Below, in pieces: positions 24,601 to 36,600 of a stretch of DNA of 64,000 nucleotides. The stretch lies in assembly GCA_026874595.1 (NCBI GenBank), contig CM049311.1, positions 72,336,453 through 72,400,452 on the forward strand, in the 5' to 3' direction. The translations under genes and the position numbers were made by a program. Within the stretch, counting starts at the first letter, position 1. Each line of letters begins with the position of its first letter. The notes under the pieces are model-generated. The model was not told the DNA's origin, searched no databases, and worked only from the letters and a program-made list of their open reading frames with translations. This stretch comes from Sipunculus nudus (Eukaryota; Annelida; Sipuncula; Golfingiida; Sipunculidae).

Positions 24601-27600
24601 GAATTTCACTTAAGCTAATACTAATATATGTATATGCAATTAATAGCCTTTGCTTTCATTGGCGTATCCCGAGGGGGCGCTTTCCCAATTTTCGTGATTA
24701 ATTTTCGCAACCCCCCCCCCCCTGTTTTCGAATTTCTGGATCTGCCACTGATCATGGCCCCCTCCCCTCCCTCAATCCTGGCTACGCCCCTGTTTATCAT
24801 TAAATCCCTTTTTTTAAATCCTGAGAGATATACAATATGGATGATGTGGTGTTTAATTAAATAATAATGTTACCTTTAAACTTGTTAGAGCACAGCAATT
24901 CTAGAATTCAAAACCGACGATTATGTCAGTCACACCAGCATTGATGCTCTACTTTGTTTACATTCAGCATCCCTCTACAATCCTTGTCAAAGAAGGTATA
25001 AGGCTACACTCATATGATCATGTAAGTATACTTATATCACAAAGTGTTGTTTAAAGTAAATGTTTTGTGTATATCTGGATATATGTGAAGATTAAAACTA
25101 CAGGAATGTTCAGCTAATAAAAATCTTTAATCCTCAACAACTAAAAAAGTGTTTTTGAAGTAGACTTGTACCTAGCACATTAATGCCATCTTTGAACTGC
25201 AGCTGTCGGACCATCTCTTTTGACTCTGTGACATTCTCCGGGATGGAAAAGTTTGACATATTGGAGGCTATTGCAGTTGTTGTCATGGTGATGGTGGTGG
25301 TAACCATCTCCGTGGTGCCATTCAACATGTCCACCATGGCCTTGGGGTCCTTTTTCCTCACAGTTTCTTCCTTCTCAACGTATATGGTCTGAACTTGTTG
25401 GAAGCAAGCTTGTACCAAATTCTCAGGGAATAGATTTCTGAGGAAACAGAAGCAAATATATGGTTTTTATAACAACAATGATTTTAGCAGTATATTATAG
25501 AAGTTTATGTGTTCATATCCTGACCTCTTTACCTCCAAAATCTCCTCTACTATGTGCTATTATATGGTATTAGGCATTTATCTTTATATCATCAGTGATA
25601 TTACCTATTTCCATGATAATACATTGATTTAATTGTGATGTCAACCAGGAAGACCTAGTCAGATGATATCAATCCAGAATGAACCGAGGGAACAACTTAC
25701 AAGGTTTGCTGGATATGTCTACAAAAGACGGACATTGATAACACTGAAATTCTAGTTTCAGAAAATAACAAGTGACCCGTGGGTCATGACACTCAGCTGA
25801 CTGACATGTTGATAATATGTCCTTGCACAGACAACCAATTAAGATCGGTGGCATCATTGTTCATGCATATAAGCTTAAGTTCATCAAGACCCTTAAGTAC
25901 AACAAATCTGATGACAATCCAACCAGCCTTTCATGAGGAATCTGGCAATTAGTGTGTATTTTGCATTATTTCTAGGGTGCTCAAACATACCCCAAAACTC
26001 TGAGAATATAGTTCACTGTGACCCAATTTCAGGTTTCTGTGGAGAACTTTTGAGGAACTCTCAGGATGTCAAGTTAGAAGATTCTGGGCCCCATGGTTAT
26101 GTTTTGTGCCCTACTTTGGTATCAAATTTCAATTATTTGGGGGGTTCTTCTGAGCCTCACAACTTGGACAATATGGGTGACAGAGACCTAATTCTAGGTT
26201 TCCGAGGAGACTTTTCATTGGCCTCCCAACATGTCATAAAAGAAGATTCTAGGTCTAGTCATTACAATTTGTGCCCTATTATCAGATGACGACATCTTTT
26301 AAGGTCACAAAAAATAGAAAAAAAATCATACAAAAATTAAAAAATACAGGTGGCGCCACCAGTCAGCAGAAACTGATGAAACACTCCATGATTAATATCC
26401 ATGCAAAGAATCATGGTGATCAATGCATTAGTTGTTCCGATACTTGAGCTTTTGTATCAAATTTTTCATTATTCTGGGGGGTACTTTGGAGTCCCATAGC
26501 TTGAAGGATATGGGCAACAGAGACCTAATTCTAGGTTTTCAAGGAGCCATTTTATGGACCTATCTGGATGTAAAGTTAGAATTTTCCAGGTCCAACGGTT
26601 ATGATTTGTGCCCAATTAACAGATGACAACATCTTTTAAGATCTCAAAATAGAGAAAAAAAATTGTAAAAAATATTCATAATACAGGTGGCGCCACCAGT
26701 TTGCATAAACTGATGAATCACTCCGTGAATAATATCCATGCAAAGAATCTTGGTGATCAATGCATTAGTTATTCAGAAAGTTGAGCTTTTGTTTCAAATT
26801 TTTCATTATTCTGGGGGGTACTTCAGAGCCCCATAGCTGGAAGATTATGGGTAACAGAGACTATATTCCATGTTTCCGAGAAGACTTTTCATGGACCTCT
26901 CTGGATGTAAAGTGAGAAGATTCCAGGTCAAGTAGTTACAATTTGTGCCCTGTTAACAGATGACAGCATCTACTGAAGTCTCGAAAATAGAGAAAAATCC
27001 TAAAAAAATCGAAGAAATACAGGTGTCACCACCAGTCTGCAGAAACTGATGATCAATATCCATGCAAAAAATCATGGTGATCAATGCATTAGTTGTTTAG
27101 ATATTTGAGCTTTTGTATCAAATTTTATTATTCTGGGGGATACTTCTGAGCCCCATAGCTGGAAGAATATGGGTAACAGAGACCTAATTCCAGGTTTCCA
27201 AGGAGATTTTTCATGGACTTCTCTGGATGTAAAGTAAGAAGATTCCAGGTTCAGTGGTTACGATTTGTGCCTTGTAAAAGGGCAGACGGCATGATGGCTG
27301 GACGGACGACGGACAAAGAGTGTTCGCTACAGCTAAGATGACTTACAGTCAGCTGAGTAAAAAAGTGTTGATAAAATTCTAGATATATGATGATAATTTA
27401 TGTAATATATTATAATTATAATATATGTTTTTTAAATTCCCTTTAACAAGCAGAGTCAATGTCTTTTGACCTTGATCTACTAGTATCTATAGGTAAATAA
27501 CCACAGTCTGAGCTGGTTTACAGATTTTACCAAAATCACACTAAGGTGAGACATTAAACATTAAAGATTCATGGCATGTTTTAAGGAAACCTATCAGATT

Positions 27601-30600
27601 TATGGAAACCAAAGGTTACACAATAGATAAACAGACCAACACTGCCCACACCTAATACCCACAGTTTACAAAATGGATATCATCAAATATTTCATGCAAG
27701 AATTTTCTGTTAGTTTGACCATGAATTAAGAAGAACAGCCTCTTCACTGGCCATTTTTGGTTAAGTGGTGACTTCAGTAATAATTAAACAAAATCTTCAC
27801 CATATGAGCACTAAACTTCTGTTCCTTATACTCAAATAATGGTTCAGAATGACTCAAGCAATGTGTTAGCACAAGTATGTGTATGGTATATGTATGTGGT
27901 ACACAATCATATGATGCTGGTAATCAGACACAATATTTGTATCCCCGATAAAGTCAGGATACAATGGTTAAAGCACAGTCACGCCGCCACCACTGCCACC
28001 GCAGAGATTTTATTTGGATGTGATAACTCAAAAAATTTTTACGAATTTTTACCACACTTGACATGTGCATAGATATGGGTGGGAGGATGAAGCCTATTTA
28101 AAATAGGGTCATGACTGAGTGCTCATATCTCTGGAATGGTTCAAGGTATTGGTCTAAAATTTGGCATGTCCATCCGTCTTGTTAAGTTTTCTCATAAACT
28201 AGACAGGTGGTGGCACCTACCTTCCCACTTTTGTAGAATAAATTAATGCCCTTTATTTGAGGAGTGATTTGCCCTATTGGCCTGAAAATGTTCATATCCT
28301 TGGACTGCTCTACCTTGTACTCAAGACTTGTGGTGCTTTTTGCAATCATTTTGCTGTAGGTCCATCTGTACATGTGCTTTGGGTAAAATTTGCTCATCTG
28401 GAGTGGTTGAAGGTATTGGTTTTAAATTTGGCATATCTATCTATCTTGTTAAATTCTCTCGTAAACCAGACAGGTTGCACCACCTACCTTCTTGTTTTGT
28501 TAAAATAAATTAATGCTTTTTTCTCAAAGTGATTTTACTCTATTGGCCCCTATTTTTGGTGAAAAAATATTGTTTCTCAATTCAATAGATGGAAGAAACC
28601 AGAGTCGCTTGCCAAGTGTCAGTATATGCTGCTAAAGATGGGGGGCCTTTTCTGAAAGGGGAGGAGGGGTTAATTGTCTGGGGATACTATGGCACCGTAG
28701 GTGCCAAGAAATATCTAGTTTCTCTTGGAAGTGATTCCATGTATATGCATTATGCATGCGTATAAATGTCTGCATGTGCAGCATGTTTCAATTTGCATTC
28801 TATATCGACTGTAAACAGCATATGCATGTTAACAGATTGGGGCCACTGGAAGTTGCCCACTATGACATCAGTGATTGGGTATTCCTCTGGAAGATGACTT
28901 CTCTGCTCCCGCGACACTTTAATATATCCCCAGTTCCGCTGTATATGTACTACATATGCATACATACTACTGGAATCACAGGCAGCCATTTTCTAGCTAC
29001 ATATGCACCAAATACACATATTGCATACACATTCTGTTGTTGCCTTTTCTGTTCACAAGAGCTTTAATTTGGCAATATTCACGAATTGGAAATAATTGCA
29101 AATATATCACCCTCAGGAATAAGATGCCCAATACACTGGGGCAATGATGCATATGTACCAATGGATTAGTTAAATCACACCTCTGGAAACATGGTTCATT
29201 AATCAGCAACCTAATCTGTGCATGGTACTGGAACCAGTGCATGCAAACACATCATAATGTAATATATATGACCACTGTAACAGGAATAAATGAGATAGTG
29301 TGGGATTTATTCCTATCATATAATAAATATAAATACTGGGGTACTTAGATTTATTTTCCAGTGTGATAATGAAAATGAAACCCTCACTAAACATTCAAAA
29401 TGAAGAAATCACAAAATTTCAACTCACTATGAAGCCAACAACAGTATGAGGAATGCTAGCTTTACTGTCCCGCCTGAGGACTTACCTGATGAGATCAAGA
29501 AACGCGTCGAGCGTGGCCACCTTCTTATTGTACAGGCCATCTCCCAGCTCCTCTTTAATGGAGGGGTCACCAGGATGGATCACCAACACGCATATAATTC
29601 CTACGATGGCTGCCAAGATGGTCGTACTGAAGTAGTAGATCAATGCTCGTGAACCCATTTTACCACTGGATTTCGCATCCAGCTGGGACAGACCTGAAAT
29701 CATATAAACACAAACTCAAACAAATTGACACAAAATTTGCATTCATGAAACATTATAATAAACTGATAAGCTTAAGCAAATAATAATATTGTCAAAGACT
29801 ACAGGGTACACATGATTTCAGAACAAATAATGAAGCCATCAAAGGGCAACCCAAACTTTTTTGATAAAATTTATCTCAAAACGGACCATTTAACAGATAG
29901 TACCCTTGCATTCTTCTTCATGTCACCTTCACAGCCCTGCAATTCACCCAAAATGCCCAAACGATGTAGTTCAGCTATCTTTTTTTATTAGCTAAAGTCC
30001 TTTGACTCAGGTAGAAAATATGTGTTTTTTTTTTGTTTTTTTTTTCAGTTAACCTGGTCTGATATTTTCAATCAACAGTTGAAAACAGAAACTTTGCAGA
30101 GAAACTTGGGACTGGAATTAAGATAATTAAATTTTGTAGGAGGTGTAATCAGTTTAGTCCAACAGATATCAACCGGCACACCAAATTTGGGGCTATCTAT
30201 ACAGCCATTCCTGAGAAATTCCTAATTCTTTATAGATTTTACCATGCATTAAGGGGCAAATTCAAGATAAAGGTCACTGTCATAAAGAAGTGCAGGACAA
30301 TCTATTAAAATGACAATATTTTGAAGATTAATCTGAAATCAAATTTAAATTATCCAGCAGACAATTTCTTGCAGGTAAGGCCTTGCTTTGCAATCCTAAT
30401 GCACAATGATAGCATGAAAGATAACTGGTGATCACAAAGAAAATTACTGGCTTTTAAACTTTAAGTATTTGTTTGTTGCTGTTTGGATGTAAATTTTACA
30501 AAAAAATAAAATATATATTACCCAATTTTATCATATCTACCAAACTCTCCTTACATTTGTTATACTTTTTTTGTTTGTATGCAGAAGATCTAAAGTCAGG

Positions 30601-33600
30601 CCGATGTATTTTAAAAAAAATTTGTGCCGAGATGAATCTAGAGAGAGTTAATTGGAGTCCGACAGTCTCCATATTTTGGCTTTTGATTTATTGTGGATTT
30701 TGAAATGATAAATCACTGGTACCTGCTCTCTGAGAGAGAGATTAATTTCTGATGTCCTGGTGAGGAAGGAGAGAGAAGTAACGTGGAAACCCTGGCCAAG
30801 ACTTATAGGCAGCAAATGCCAATAATACCTTTTCCTTTGTTTTCCAATTTAAGGGTCATAATCAGAGACGTGGTTTCTTGGGATTATGACCATAATGAGT
30901 CGCACCTGGGAAGTAAATTATTCATCAAAAAGAATGGTAAAGCTCCCTCCACGAGGATGTGAACACCACGTTGAGTTGCACTTTTGTTTTTGCACCTTTA
31001 ATCAGAGAGTCGTATGCCTTTGGGACTGGAACTGGTGAATATTTAACGGTGAACTCCGCTGTCAGACGGTGTGATGATGTACTGCCAGTCGTGTGACAGC
31101 AACAACTATTTCAGGCTCAGGCAAACTGCTGATGCACATGAATATTTCATCAAGCTGGGGGACTTGTTGCTTCCACGACAGTTCCTGTTTTCCTACTCAA
31201 GAATGGTTAGCAGTCACTTCATGTGTTTTTTTACTAATTCTTTCAGAATGCTTGCCAGGATATGGCTCTTGGTAGTTCACAGACTCTGACATTACAGCTA
31301 TCCTATGACTTTAATAACAAGGTGGTAATACCAAAACCCTAGGTCAAAAAAACTTCCTGAAGATTAAAATATAATACTCTCTCATAACAGTGTAATGACC
31401 TTTTCAAAAAGACTGAGGGGCCGATTTCATAACCTTATATGGAGGCAAGAGATATTATGTTTTACCCTTGGATTGTCTGTGTGCAATTTTATGCAGTATG
31501 TGTTCTGAACAGTTTTTTTTTATTTAAACATAAAATCAGAATATCCAGAGAACCTGCAGGCAAAAAATGAGTTTAACCCTAACAAAATGTCAACATTAAT
31601 ATTGAATGTCTATACAAAGAACTTCTGCACAGTGGTAACTACATCTGCCTTTCCAGTCGAGACACAGAGAGGATTGACCTTCAAATCTGACAACTACAGG
31701 TATCATAAAGATTGACAGATTAAATTCACCAGCACTAGTACAGCTGTAACTAGGCACACAAGTGGGTGGAACAAGTTATGTGAGCGCTGGCTTTGTTGAA
31801 AAACATCCACAGGAATATGGTCTAGCTCACTTCAGGTAACACCTACATACTGGGTCAGAGGTCAGCTGGTTGAACAGAAAACCTTACTGCCAAGTTCACT
31901 GGGCTCCAGTTTTGAGTTGTTTTAATGTAAAGTGACGGGATATCCAAAGACCACAAATGTAGTTTCTGACATGGACACCAGATGGCTACCTCTCACATGC
32001 TTTTCAAAGCAAACATGAGAAGCCACAAGGCCAAATAAATTAAAAGGTATGGTTCTCAGGCAGCGCCTGCGTCAATTTTAACCCCCCGCATCAAATATTT
32101 TTATTTTGATACAATTTCCTTTGTTATGTAGTGCCTTTACCTGTTTAGCAAAATAAAATTTTGTTATATTCCCTGATCATACAACATTTTTACAGAAATA
32201 TACCAAAAAAAGGTAAAAAATAAAATACTGCCTGCCTGCAGTGGTTTCTGAAAAAAAAGTGCCTGAGAACCATACCTTTTTTTAATTTTTTGGCAAAATG
32301 GCAGGTTTTACGAACTCTCTCATGTATTTTTTTTTATTCATTTTTGTGTTATGGTTTCACCTCATGAACGGTACAAGATGCATCTTGTTTTGCTACCTAT
32401 GGATTAAAAAGACTCATTAAATCTGTCACTTGATACCTGATATAAGACTGAAAATTTTTTGATTAAGTAGCTAATGCCCCACTGCCACCTGAGATTTTAA
32501 TGAGGGAAAGTATAAAACCAAGATAAAAAGTGGAAATAATCTAGAAAAGAAAGAATATTAATAAATTTTTTTTTAATCTGATTACACATAAATAATACTG
32601 ATAAAGAAGAAGTACTAAAAGATCATCTTAAGGATGAAGATTTTACATGAAAAATTTTCCAACTTGATAAAGTAACAAGTGACCCTTGGGTCATGACACC
32701 AAGATGAATTTGACATGTATACAGGTAATGCATGAATTAATAATTGATGTTATGATCTGGTAAAAATATTTTTTAAGGAACCTTGAACAATGGGTAGAAT
32801 AACTGCCAGAGTGCTAACAATAATGTTTTTTTCCCCTGATGCTTAGAAAATAGGTTACAGCAAGAAGATTTTACTAATAACTCCAAAGATGCTACCCCAG
32901 ATGCTTAGTAAGAAGTTTTTAGGTCAAACTGCTATGACATCTGACTTATAGGGTATTCGAAACATGTTGTTTTGCACAGCTCTCAGAATAAAGGTCACAA
33001 TGACCTTATTTTGGATGTCAAAGGAGACGTTATTAAGAAAGACATATCTAGAGCCAACAGTTAAGATTTGTGACTGGTCTTACTTCTGGCTGCTCAAAAT
33101 TAGATTTTCTGTCGATAGCTCAGAGAATATAGGTCACAGTGACCTAATTTCAGGACTCAAATGAGACTTGACAAGGACCTCACTTGATAACATATTAAAG
33201 GTTCTAGGTCCAACAGTAAAGTATAGTGCCATGTCTGATTGTCTATGTGCTCATAGTCATATTTTTGGCCAGCTGCTTGCAGAATAAAAGTCATCTTGAC
33301 CTCCTTTCAAGTTTCAAAGGAGATTTGGGCAGAACTTACTTGAATGTTGTGTTATAACATTCTATGGACAGGGTAGGTTTTCTGCCGGGCAGATATGTAT
33401 TTCTTCCCTGCCTATGCCAGAAATAAGGCAGAAAACCATTGTGTTTCTGCCAGGCAGAAATGGCAGATTTAAGTATCAAAATATATATTGTATTTTTAAA
33501 AGAAATAGTAATCTAAATAAATCAAAAGCTGCTTTAAATACAAGCATTTATTATAACATTTAGAAATGATAGTCATTTTATTAAATTTAGTCGATGATAA

Positions 33601-36600
33601 TAAGGCCTCAATGCACCTCTTCACTTTCTGTAACAAGCAAGGTTTGCAAGCTCTAGGCAGGGAGAGGGGAATATTAAGCAACAGGATTATAAACTGGTTT
33701 TAACTGCCACCTGTAAACAGCAATTTGCATAAATTGAAATCTGCCAAAATTTATAACCAAGAGACTTATAAGAACTATTGTGACCCAGTGGTATAGTCAC
33801 AGGGCTGTTTTTGACTCAAAATGTTCAGGTGAATGTGCTGCCTGATTTCCAGTTGACTGGGATAATGCAGCCCCATCTCTAGAGCCTGTACTGTCCTGTA
33901 GGTTCCTAAGCAGGAGACTTAATGTAGGCACATGGGTTCCTAGGCTCAGGTAATGTCTTAATCACAGCCTTTTAGCTTTGCTGATATGCATAAACTTGTT
34001 TACATAGTCATTCCAGTGCACTGGTACCTGTAACAGGACTTCCTAAGGCTGGGCATCTGAGGGGAAAGGTTGAGCAAGCGTTTACTATCAATGAGAGTGA
34101 TGTGGAAAGATCATGTGCTCTTTCATGCATGGCATAATGCAGACTGTGATGATGCTAACAGAGCCTCTTGACTTTTGGTGCAGGGTCCTTGGTTAAGTTT
34201 AGCTTATTATTGACCCCCCGCCCTTCCTATAGTTGAGGTTGCACAAGCCTTCTTCAAGGTGTACCTGGACCCTCAATTATTTATTAATATATATTATATA
34301 TTATATATTCTGTTACAAGTTTACACCTTGCTCATTTTCACTGCTGTTATATTACTGCTGTTTCATATTTAAATTGGTTAGCTATTATATATTCATTTTA
34401 TTGCAGTTTTCAGGGTATTTCTGTCCTTATGGCAGAAATAAGGGCAGAAAATCTATCTGCCACACGGCAGTTGCTGGCCAGTAACCAATGGCAGAAATGG
34501 CAATGGCAGAAACTTGCCAACCCTGTCTATGGCCTAACAATTACAATTTTTTCCTGTCTGGTTGTTCAAAATCATGTTTTTGCCCATTCACTCGCAGAAT
34601 ATGTCATCATGACCTAATTTCAAAATTTGCCCAAGACTTCCCTGTATATTACACTTGAAGATTCTAGGGTTAACAGATTCAGTTTGTGCACATCTGACTT
34701 CCAGGGTGCTCAAACAAGTTTTTTTTTCCTGTAGCTCATAGAAAATAGGTCACAATGACCTATTTTCATATTTCCAAGGACATTTACCCAGGACCTCCCT
34801 GAATGTTACATCAGAAGACTGAAGACCAAATTGATAATAATTCTGCCCTGTCGGATTCTCCAGATGCCCATAATCATGCTTTTTCAGCCAGGTTGCCATG
34901 AATTTATTTCAAGTTTCTGAGAAAATTTGCCCAGAAACTCCCTGGATGATGCATGCCTAAGAAGATTCTGGGCCTAAAGGTACCAATTTAGGTCCATCTT
35001 AATTTCAGGGTGTTCAATTCATGTTTTTTCCTATAGCTTGCAGAATAAAGGTCACAGTGACCTAATTTCATGTTTCCTAGGACATCTATCCAGTACTTCA
35101 ATGAATGTCACATTAGAAGATTATAGGCCTTATGGATACAATTTCTGCCCTGTCCAACTTTCTGGACACTTAAAATCATGTTTACGGCCAGTAACTTGCA
35201 GAATATAGGTACCTGATGTAAGACTGGATATGATAAGTGAATGACTACGTTTCTGAAATAAGACTGGATATGATAAGTATATGACTACGTACCTGATATA
35301 AGACTGGATATGATAAGTATATGACTACGTACCTGATATATGACTGGATATGATATGATAAGTATATGACTACGTACCTGATATAAGACTGGATATGATA
35401 AGTATATGACTACGTACCTGATATAAGACTGGATATGATAAGTATGTGACTACGTACCTGATATAAGACTAGATATCATAAGTGGATGACTACTAACCTG
35501 AAATAAGACTAGATATGATAAGTATATGACTACATACCTGATATAAGACTGGATATGATAAGTATATGACTATGTACCTGATATAAGACTGGATATGATA
35601 AGTATATGACTATGTACCTGATATAAGACTAGATATCATAAGTGGATGACTACGTACCTGATATAAGACTAGATATGATAAGTATATGACTACGTACCTG
35701 ATATGAGACTAAATATGATAAGTGGATGACTACGTACCTGATATAAGACTGGATATGATAAGTGGATTACTATGTACCTGATATAAGACTGAATACGATA
35801 AGTGTATGACTACGTACCTGATACAAGACCAGATATGATAAGTGGATGATTACGTACCTGATATAAGACTGGATATGATAAGTGGAAGGATGAGCATTTT
35901 CAACATCCTCATGAGAACGTCTCCAGGGAAAGCAATAAACATTATGACATCAGCGCTGGGTTTGGCTGATCTGCCTGCAAATCCAATCACTGCTCCCAAT
36001 AAGACACCTGCTATCGTCAGAACTAGCAAAAGGTTCTTTTTCATCCAGGATAGAAACTGTAAAGACAAGAGGCTGATAGTGTAATTACTGGTGCTGTAAT
36101 ATATTGTTACATAGTCAAATATTGTATAATAAAGCTTAAACCCCATGTGAGCCTATATGCATATGTGTGCCTGTGCCTCTATTGTGGGCACCCTTGGGTT
36201 TAGGCCAAACTGCCCACATTATAGAGGTGCCTACTTTATGGCTGTGAAGACTTCAACATAATGAGAAAGAAACTGACTGTCAAAAACTGCTCACTATATA
36301 GAGGTGCCGCTTCATAAAGGCGTCCACTAGGAGAGGTTCCACTGTGTAAATATATATGTATACATATATACATATTGCATGCTGGCAGACAGGGGAGTTT
36401 TACACAGTCATAAAAATCATACGCCTGATTTTGCCATAAATATTCTAATATACTTGTAACATAGTGTGACAGTTAGGGTTTATATTCAGATAAGGAAACT
36501 GTAAATGTTTACAATTATTCTTCAGTCTAGTGATTTTCCTGAAAGGGGTTACACAGCTCATAAATGACAATCTATACATTAACATATAATATTCAGTGAA

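Follow-up and report, generated by a model that had tools for sequence, protein, structure and literature searches.

Splice-junction minisatellites at donors and acceptors across the Sipunculus nudus assembly, with an array in an EAAT gene as one case

Introduction

How does an intron come to open with a long series of copies of its own splice donor, do the copies serve a purpose, and is the locus alone in carrying them? These questions are raised by an EAAT (SLC1) gene in the window examined here, by which we mean the whole 64,000-nt stretch of Sipunculus nudus DNA that was analysed. The original prediction for this locus was that a minisatellite had been seeded by the junction of exon 2 and intron 2, that its decoy donors were largely conserved, and that such an array was undescribed for this gene family.

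Three known systems are relevant. The name 'mirages' was given, in amphioxus Adh3, to minisatellite-like arrays in which an exon-intron boundary is duplicated in tandem (PMC3087553, PMC3902484); the globin genes BflGb6 and BflGb9 carry them (PMC3087553), and TnC and PGBD5 were added (PMC3902484). They occur at donors and acceptors, with units of ~10-160 bp and AG/GT in many copies; the units of BflGb6 are 81-100% identical, array length varies, and regular splicing is reported to be undisturbed (PMC3087553, PMC3902484). In humans, variable internal tandem repeats are minisatellites with units of ~30 bp at the exon-intron boundaries of genes (PMC2812944). Finally, in the Rogers model introns are gained when AGGT-containing segments duplicate in tandem, with examples in ATP2A1, fission yeast genes, and potato RdRp (PMC4974935).

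Results

Exon 2 of the EAAT gene occupies 36057-35858 on the minus strand (200 nt; an open reading frame with a PF00375 match on contig C6) and encodes a conserved SDF/EAAT segment. Its 3' end reads ATATCAG/GTACGTA (the slash marks the exon border) or, by codon, CTT ATC ATA TCC AGT CTT ATA TCA G/gtacgtaatcat, and it supplies the exonic part of the repeated unit. The true junction, unit 0 (35846..35885, minus strand), comprises the last 28 nt of the exon and the first 12 nt of the intron, with the donor GT at 35857. Contiguous with it on the same strand are 16 extra copies of this 40-bp unit (35209..35845), and TRF reported the entire array, the true junction counted in, at 35209..35883 with period 40, 16.8 copies, and 88% matches. 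The decoy donors lie at 35817, 35777, 35737, 35697, 35657, 35617, 35577, and 35537 and, in the distal half, at 35497, 35457, 35417, 35377, 35332, 35292, 35252, and 35212, a spacing of 40 with a single exception of 45. CAG is retained in 16/16 extra copies, CAG/GT in 15, and the full CAGGTACGTA in nine; the one dead decoy, at 35252, reads CAG/AAACGT. These counts are exactly those of the original prediction, which had also given the 40-bp unit length correctly and had apportioned it as ~25 exonic and ~15 intronic nucleotides instead of the 28 and 12 measured here.

Identity between the copies and the true junction is 80-97.5%, and mean pairwise identity is 87%. The chance of at least 24 matches over 28 exonic positions is ~1e-9 per site, and the similarity between unit and exon end is thus not a coincidence. 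A genome-wide search (1.43 Gb, 153 contigs) matched the unit to the EAAT array alone, a result that is strong rather than absolute because the search skips very common words. The array therefore has the anatomy of a mirage: every unit joins exon and intron sequence round a real splice junction, the unit is of minisatellite size with imperfect copies, and the splice signals persist in many of them.

Other repeats and reading frames were observed in the window. A degenerate old repeat (34691-35208 and 32938-33152) adjoins the distal end of the array at the junction CAGGTACCTATATTC; by self-comparison it is not part of the unit, and its segments are ~76-79% identical, with one short piece at 89%. 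A 337-bp tandem repeat of 3.5 copies (26114-27271) lies in a different EAAT intron, away from exon edges. Overlapping long open frames of 315 and 173 aa at 1500-2913 on the minus strand look coding and possibly belong to a mobile element.

Exon 3 lies at 29486..29694 on the minus strand (ends approximate; acceptor ATTTCAG/GTCTGTCCC), giving an intron 2 of ~6.2 kb. Joining exons 2 and 3 through the first donor (TCA G/GT CTG) keeps the frame. Any decoy would add 40n (or 40n+5) nt to exon 2, and each such extension opens GGT ACG TAA, a stop two codons past the normal exon end. We deduce that productive splicing must use the first donor. The assembly has further SDF-family genes, and five EAAT paralogs have an intron at the same codon, with donors GTATGT, GTAAGT, GTGAGT, GTACCC, and GTACCC. 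No comparable array was found in the several hundred bases past the same-site donor of these five paralogs. Since they share the intron without the array, both exon and intron are old, and one EAAT gene later acquired the array; exon 2 is, as judged from sequence, the original from which the array copies derive.

The claim that the donors are largely conserved stood as far as most being intact. Special conservation was not borne out: the CAGGT columns show 2 changes in 5 columns over 17 units, and 7/40 circular five-column windows are at least as invariant (17/40 for the 9-mer). Conservation at the decoy donors does not exceed that in the remainder of the unit, and this comparison of column invariance among the 17 EAAT units gave no sign of selection on them. 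Intact decoys are expected of young, homogenised copies. Predicted pairing with U1 was -9.5 kcal/mol for the true donor and for nine decoys, -7.1 to -9.9 kcal/mol for the other intact decoys, and -1.6 kcal/mol for the dead one, with two decoys marginally stronger than the true donor. Because nine decoys equal the true donor in this prediction, donor strength does not explain the choice between them. Sequestration of decoys in RNA structure was considered and set aside, the signal from naive local folding being too weak to use (probability of an unpaired 9-mer 0.018 for the true donor, 0.002-0.008 for identical decoys, and up to 0.02 for weaker decoys).

The array is not singular: arrays of the same kind occur in many other genes of the assembly. 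A search of the genome assembly for three CAGGTAAGT words spaced 15-45 bp apart gave 393 matches, and the 100 listed correspond to 14 distinct arrays lying between C1 and C5:2.3 Mb, a span of ~407 Mb or 28% of the genome. The upstream edge was read for all 14. In at least ten of them the array begins where an open coding exon ends, and the final bases of that exon are repeated in the units. Exons in this set belong to HADH (3HCDH_N match, E 1.5e-5), an ABC transporter membrane region (E 3.1e-6, just under the curated cut-off), TXNDC5 (E 8.6e-12), PRKDC (a weak match, E 0.61, with 6/6 hits to DNA-PKcs), and a PH-domain gene (weak, E 0.016); the remaining exon-seeded arrays were called from an open frame and a splice acceptor only. 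L041 and L082 probably start at exon ends. No exon was seen on reading the upstream edge of L083 and L084, and no solved structure matched the exon peptides of L086 and L045. Over the first 9.1 Mb of C1, single CAGGTAAGT sites listed without filtering formed three clusters, one starting at a TPR-like exon (L184) and two having no visible exon (L185, L186).

Two control words were searched in the same manner. The one-base variant CAGCTAAGT gave 3 distinct arrays genome-wide (5,781 single sites), and the reversed word TGAATGGAC gave 3 arrays in the same 407 Mb (12,947 single sites genome-wide, compared with 15,335 for CAGGTAAGT). Per single site, the donor word was in arrays 6.2-fold more often than CAGCTAAGT (p = 0.002) and 3.9-fold more often than TGAATGGAC (p = 0.026), figures that come from one donor word and two control words, with array copies included in the single counts. 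Against both controls pooled, which relies on an estimated genome share, the enrichment was 3.7-fold (p = 0.0008). The size of the excess is about the number of exon-seeded arrays.

Acceptors are arrayed as well. Searching for three TTTTNCAGR words gave many arrays, of which 15 edges were read: in five the array stops at an apparent exon start, and ten are plain intronic T-rich repeats. The five comprise MMS19 (~C1:8484840-8488130, in 43-44-bp steps over ~3.3 kb; Pfam 5.4e-13), DOCK (Pfam 3.9e-31), an exon with a weak UCH match (0.061) that we take to be USP39-like, a receptor-like TM7 exon judged by eye, and an unnamed exon. The reversed-word control had more matches, and the acceptor array counts are therefore no evidence of enrichment.

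A comparison of 27 EAAT-family exon loci, selected by homology alone, revealed a further case. Two EAAT paralogs on C15 (L036:1113-1535 and L038:1195-1535) have a 57-bp acceptor mirage in common, the former with roughly 7 copies and the latter with roughly 6. A shared array with differing copy number implies that it either arose before the gene duplicated or passed from one gene to the other by exchange. Three exons are arrayed at both edges, those of PRKDC (L087), the TPR-like locus (L184), and an unnamed locus (L085). The exon begins with GT, giving an AG/GT boundary, in 6/8 acceptor mirages (L173, L178, L182, L183, L036/L038, and L184; binomial p 0.004 against an assumed 25%, calculated post hoc and with a search word that partly favours AG/GT).

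Discussion

The EAAT array resembles the amphioxus mirages in consisting of imperfect tandem exon-intron units whose splice signals are mostly retained. As to whether it was undescribed, we found no published EAAT mirage in a literature search to which most subscription papers were closed, and the same search returned no mirages by that name outside cephalochordates; the kind of array itself was already described in amphioxus (PMC3087553, PMC3902484). What appears to be new is its extent across a genome. The published cases concern a few genes, whereas here they were recovered genome-wide, with 16 extra copies in EAAT and an array of ~3.3 kb in MMS19. All published hosts that we found are cephalochordates, whereas the host here is probably a protostome; the assembly contains at least 15 innexin loci, which together with the 1.43-Gb genome size point to a protostome, probably a lophotrochozoan, and make a lancelet unlikely. 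A search for an annelid linker family gave no match, and its controls gave none either.

The assembly also holds other DNA. A COX1 search returned a short nuclear fragment (L081) and otherwise bacterial genes only. Bacterial-looking contigs (C60, C61, C62, C66, C72, C74, C75, C89, C109, C113, and C123) bear nine cytochrome oxidase genes with near-equal scores, and the one bacterial-contig COX1 compared was at most 58% identical to GTDB genomes. These contigs are perhaps several strains of an uncharacterised associate.

The EAAT array differs from the other two known systems. The human repeats are found in recent segmental duplicates, and the description of them is that they alter splicing or form introns (PMC2812944), whereas the EAAT array sits within an existing intron common to paralogs. 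It shares with Rogers-type duplications the tandem multiplication of AG/GT sites (PMC4974935), but no intron was gained: the intron position is common to five array-free paralogs and predates the array.

We consider it likely that the array is a mirage-type minisatellite which expanded near-neutrally from a duplication across the junction, the first donor being the one used. A short segment across the junction of exon 2 and intron 2 would have been duplicated in tandem on the intron side, with replication slippage and/or unequal exchange bringing the extra copies to 16. The spliceosome would take the first, exon-adjacent donor and remove the copies with the intron, as reported for amphioxus mirages. 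The array presumably persists because it is nearly neutral, and the decoys would be intact because the copies are young and homogenised rather than because they are selected.

An alternative is regulated unproductive splicing, in which use of a decoy leads to an early stop and transcript decay, the array thereby tuning the level of EAAT. The stop two codons into every extension and the equal U1 pairing of nine decoys with the true donor would suit such a role. We nevertheless regard it as unlikely, given donor columns without excess conservation, the absence of the array from EAAT paralogs, the presence of the same kind of array in many unrelated genes, and amphioxus mirages reported without disturbance of splicing (PMC3087553). 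It is still less probable that the redundancy is useful, the donor repeats acting as a U1-recruiting platform that aids definition of exon 2 or protects a long intron. Fifteen intact donors within 650 bp could form such a platform, but the decoys are unconstrained and paralogs with similar or weak donors (GTACCC) do without an array.

The units also read TTATATCAG/GTACGTA, which places an acceptor-like AG beside each donor, and the array could in principle be removed stepwise through zero-length exons, leaving the mRNA unchanged. The AG/GT boundary in 15/16 units, and in 6/8 acceptor mirages too, is compatible with this scheme; the pyrimidine tract is poor by eye, and a normal mRNA can be explained without it, making the scheme highly improbable. 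Tandem repeats are error-prone in assembly, and a draft assembly got one of the published amphioxus mirages wrong (PMC3087553), but there is very little chance that the EAAT array is an artefact, as its copies diverge in sequence, with one indel and one dead donor among them, and many independent arrays of the same kind occur in this chromosome-scale assembly, one of them shared by two paralogs. A dispersed satellite or transposon-borne repeat that resembles the exon end by coincidence can be dismissed within this assembly, the genome search having matched the unit at one locus and the unit matching 28 exonic nucleotides.

Splice junctions may be true hot spots for such arrays or may simply be hit in a minisatellite-rich genome. 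The examined loci, 87 kb of sequence, contain a few arrays of at least five copies, and as a rough estimate random placement at the array density of the 87 kb examined would give hundreds of junction hits. Donor words are 4-6 times commoner in arrays than control words, and random seeding alone may thus be incomplete. A tentative reading, which we think has a real but lesser chance of being correct, is that splice junctions act in this genome as hot spots where minisatellites arise or survive. It draws on that 4-6-fold excess, comparable in number to the arrays that begin at real exon ends, and on the exons arrayed at both edges and the AG/GT boundary seen in most acceptor mirages. Were it true, it would point to a transcription- or splicing-linked route to tandem repeats or, alternatively, to a filter that retains duplications spanning a junction, since splicing conceals them.

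Every mirage offers a natural experiment in splice-site choice, as many copies of one donor, sharing its exonic context, follow the true donor in series. Should RNA show use of the first donor alone, the choice would be governed by position or by transcription order rather than by local sequence. With many mirage loci at both exon edges, what was an oddity of amphioxus becomes testable at scale, and the mirages would provide raw material for shifts of exon borders or for intron gain.
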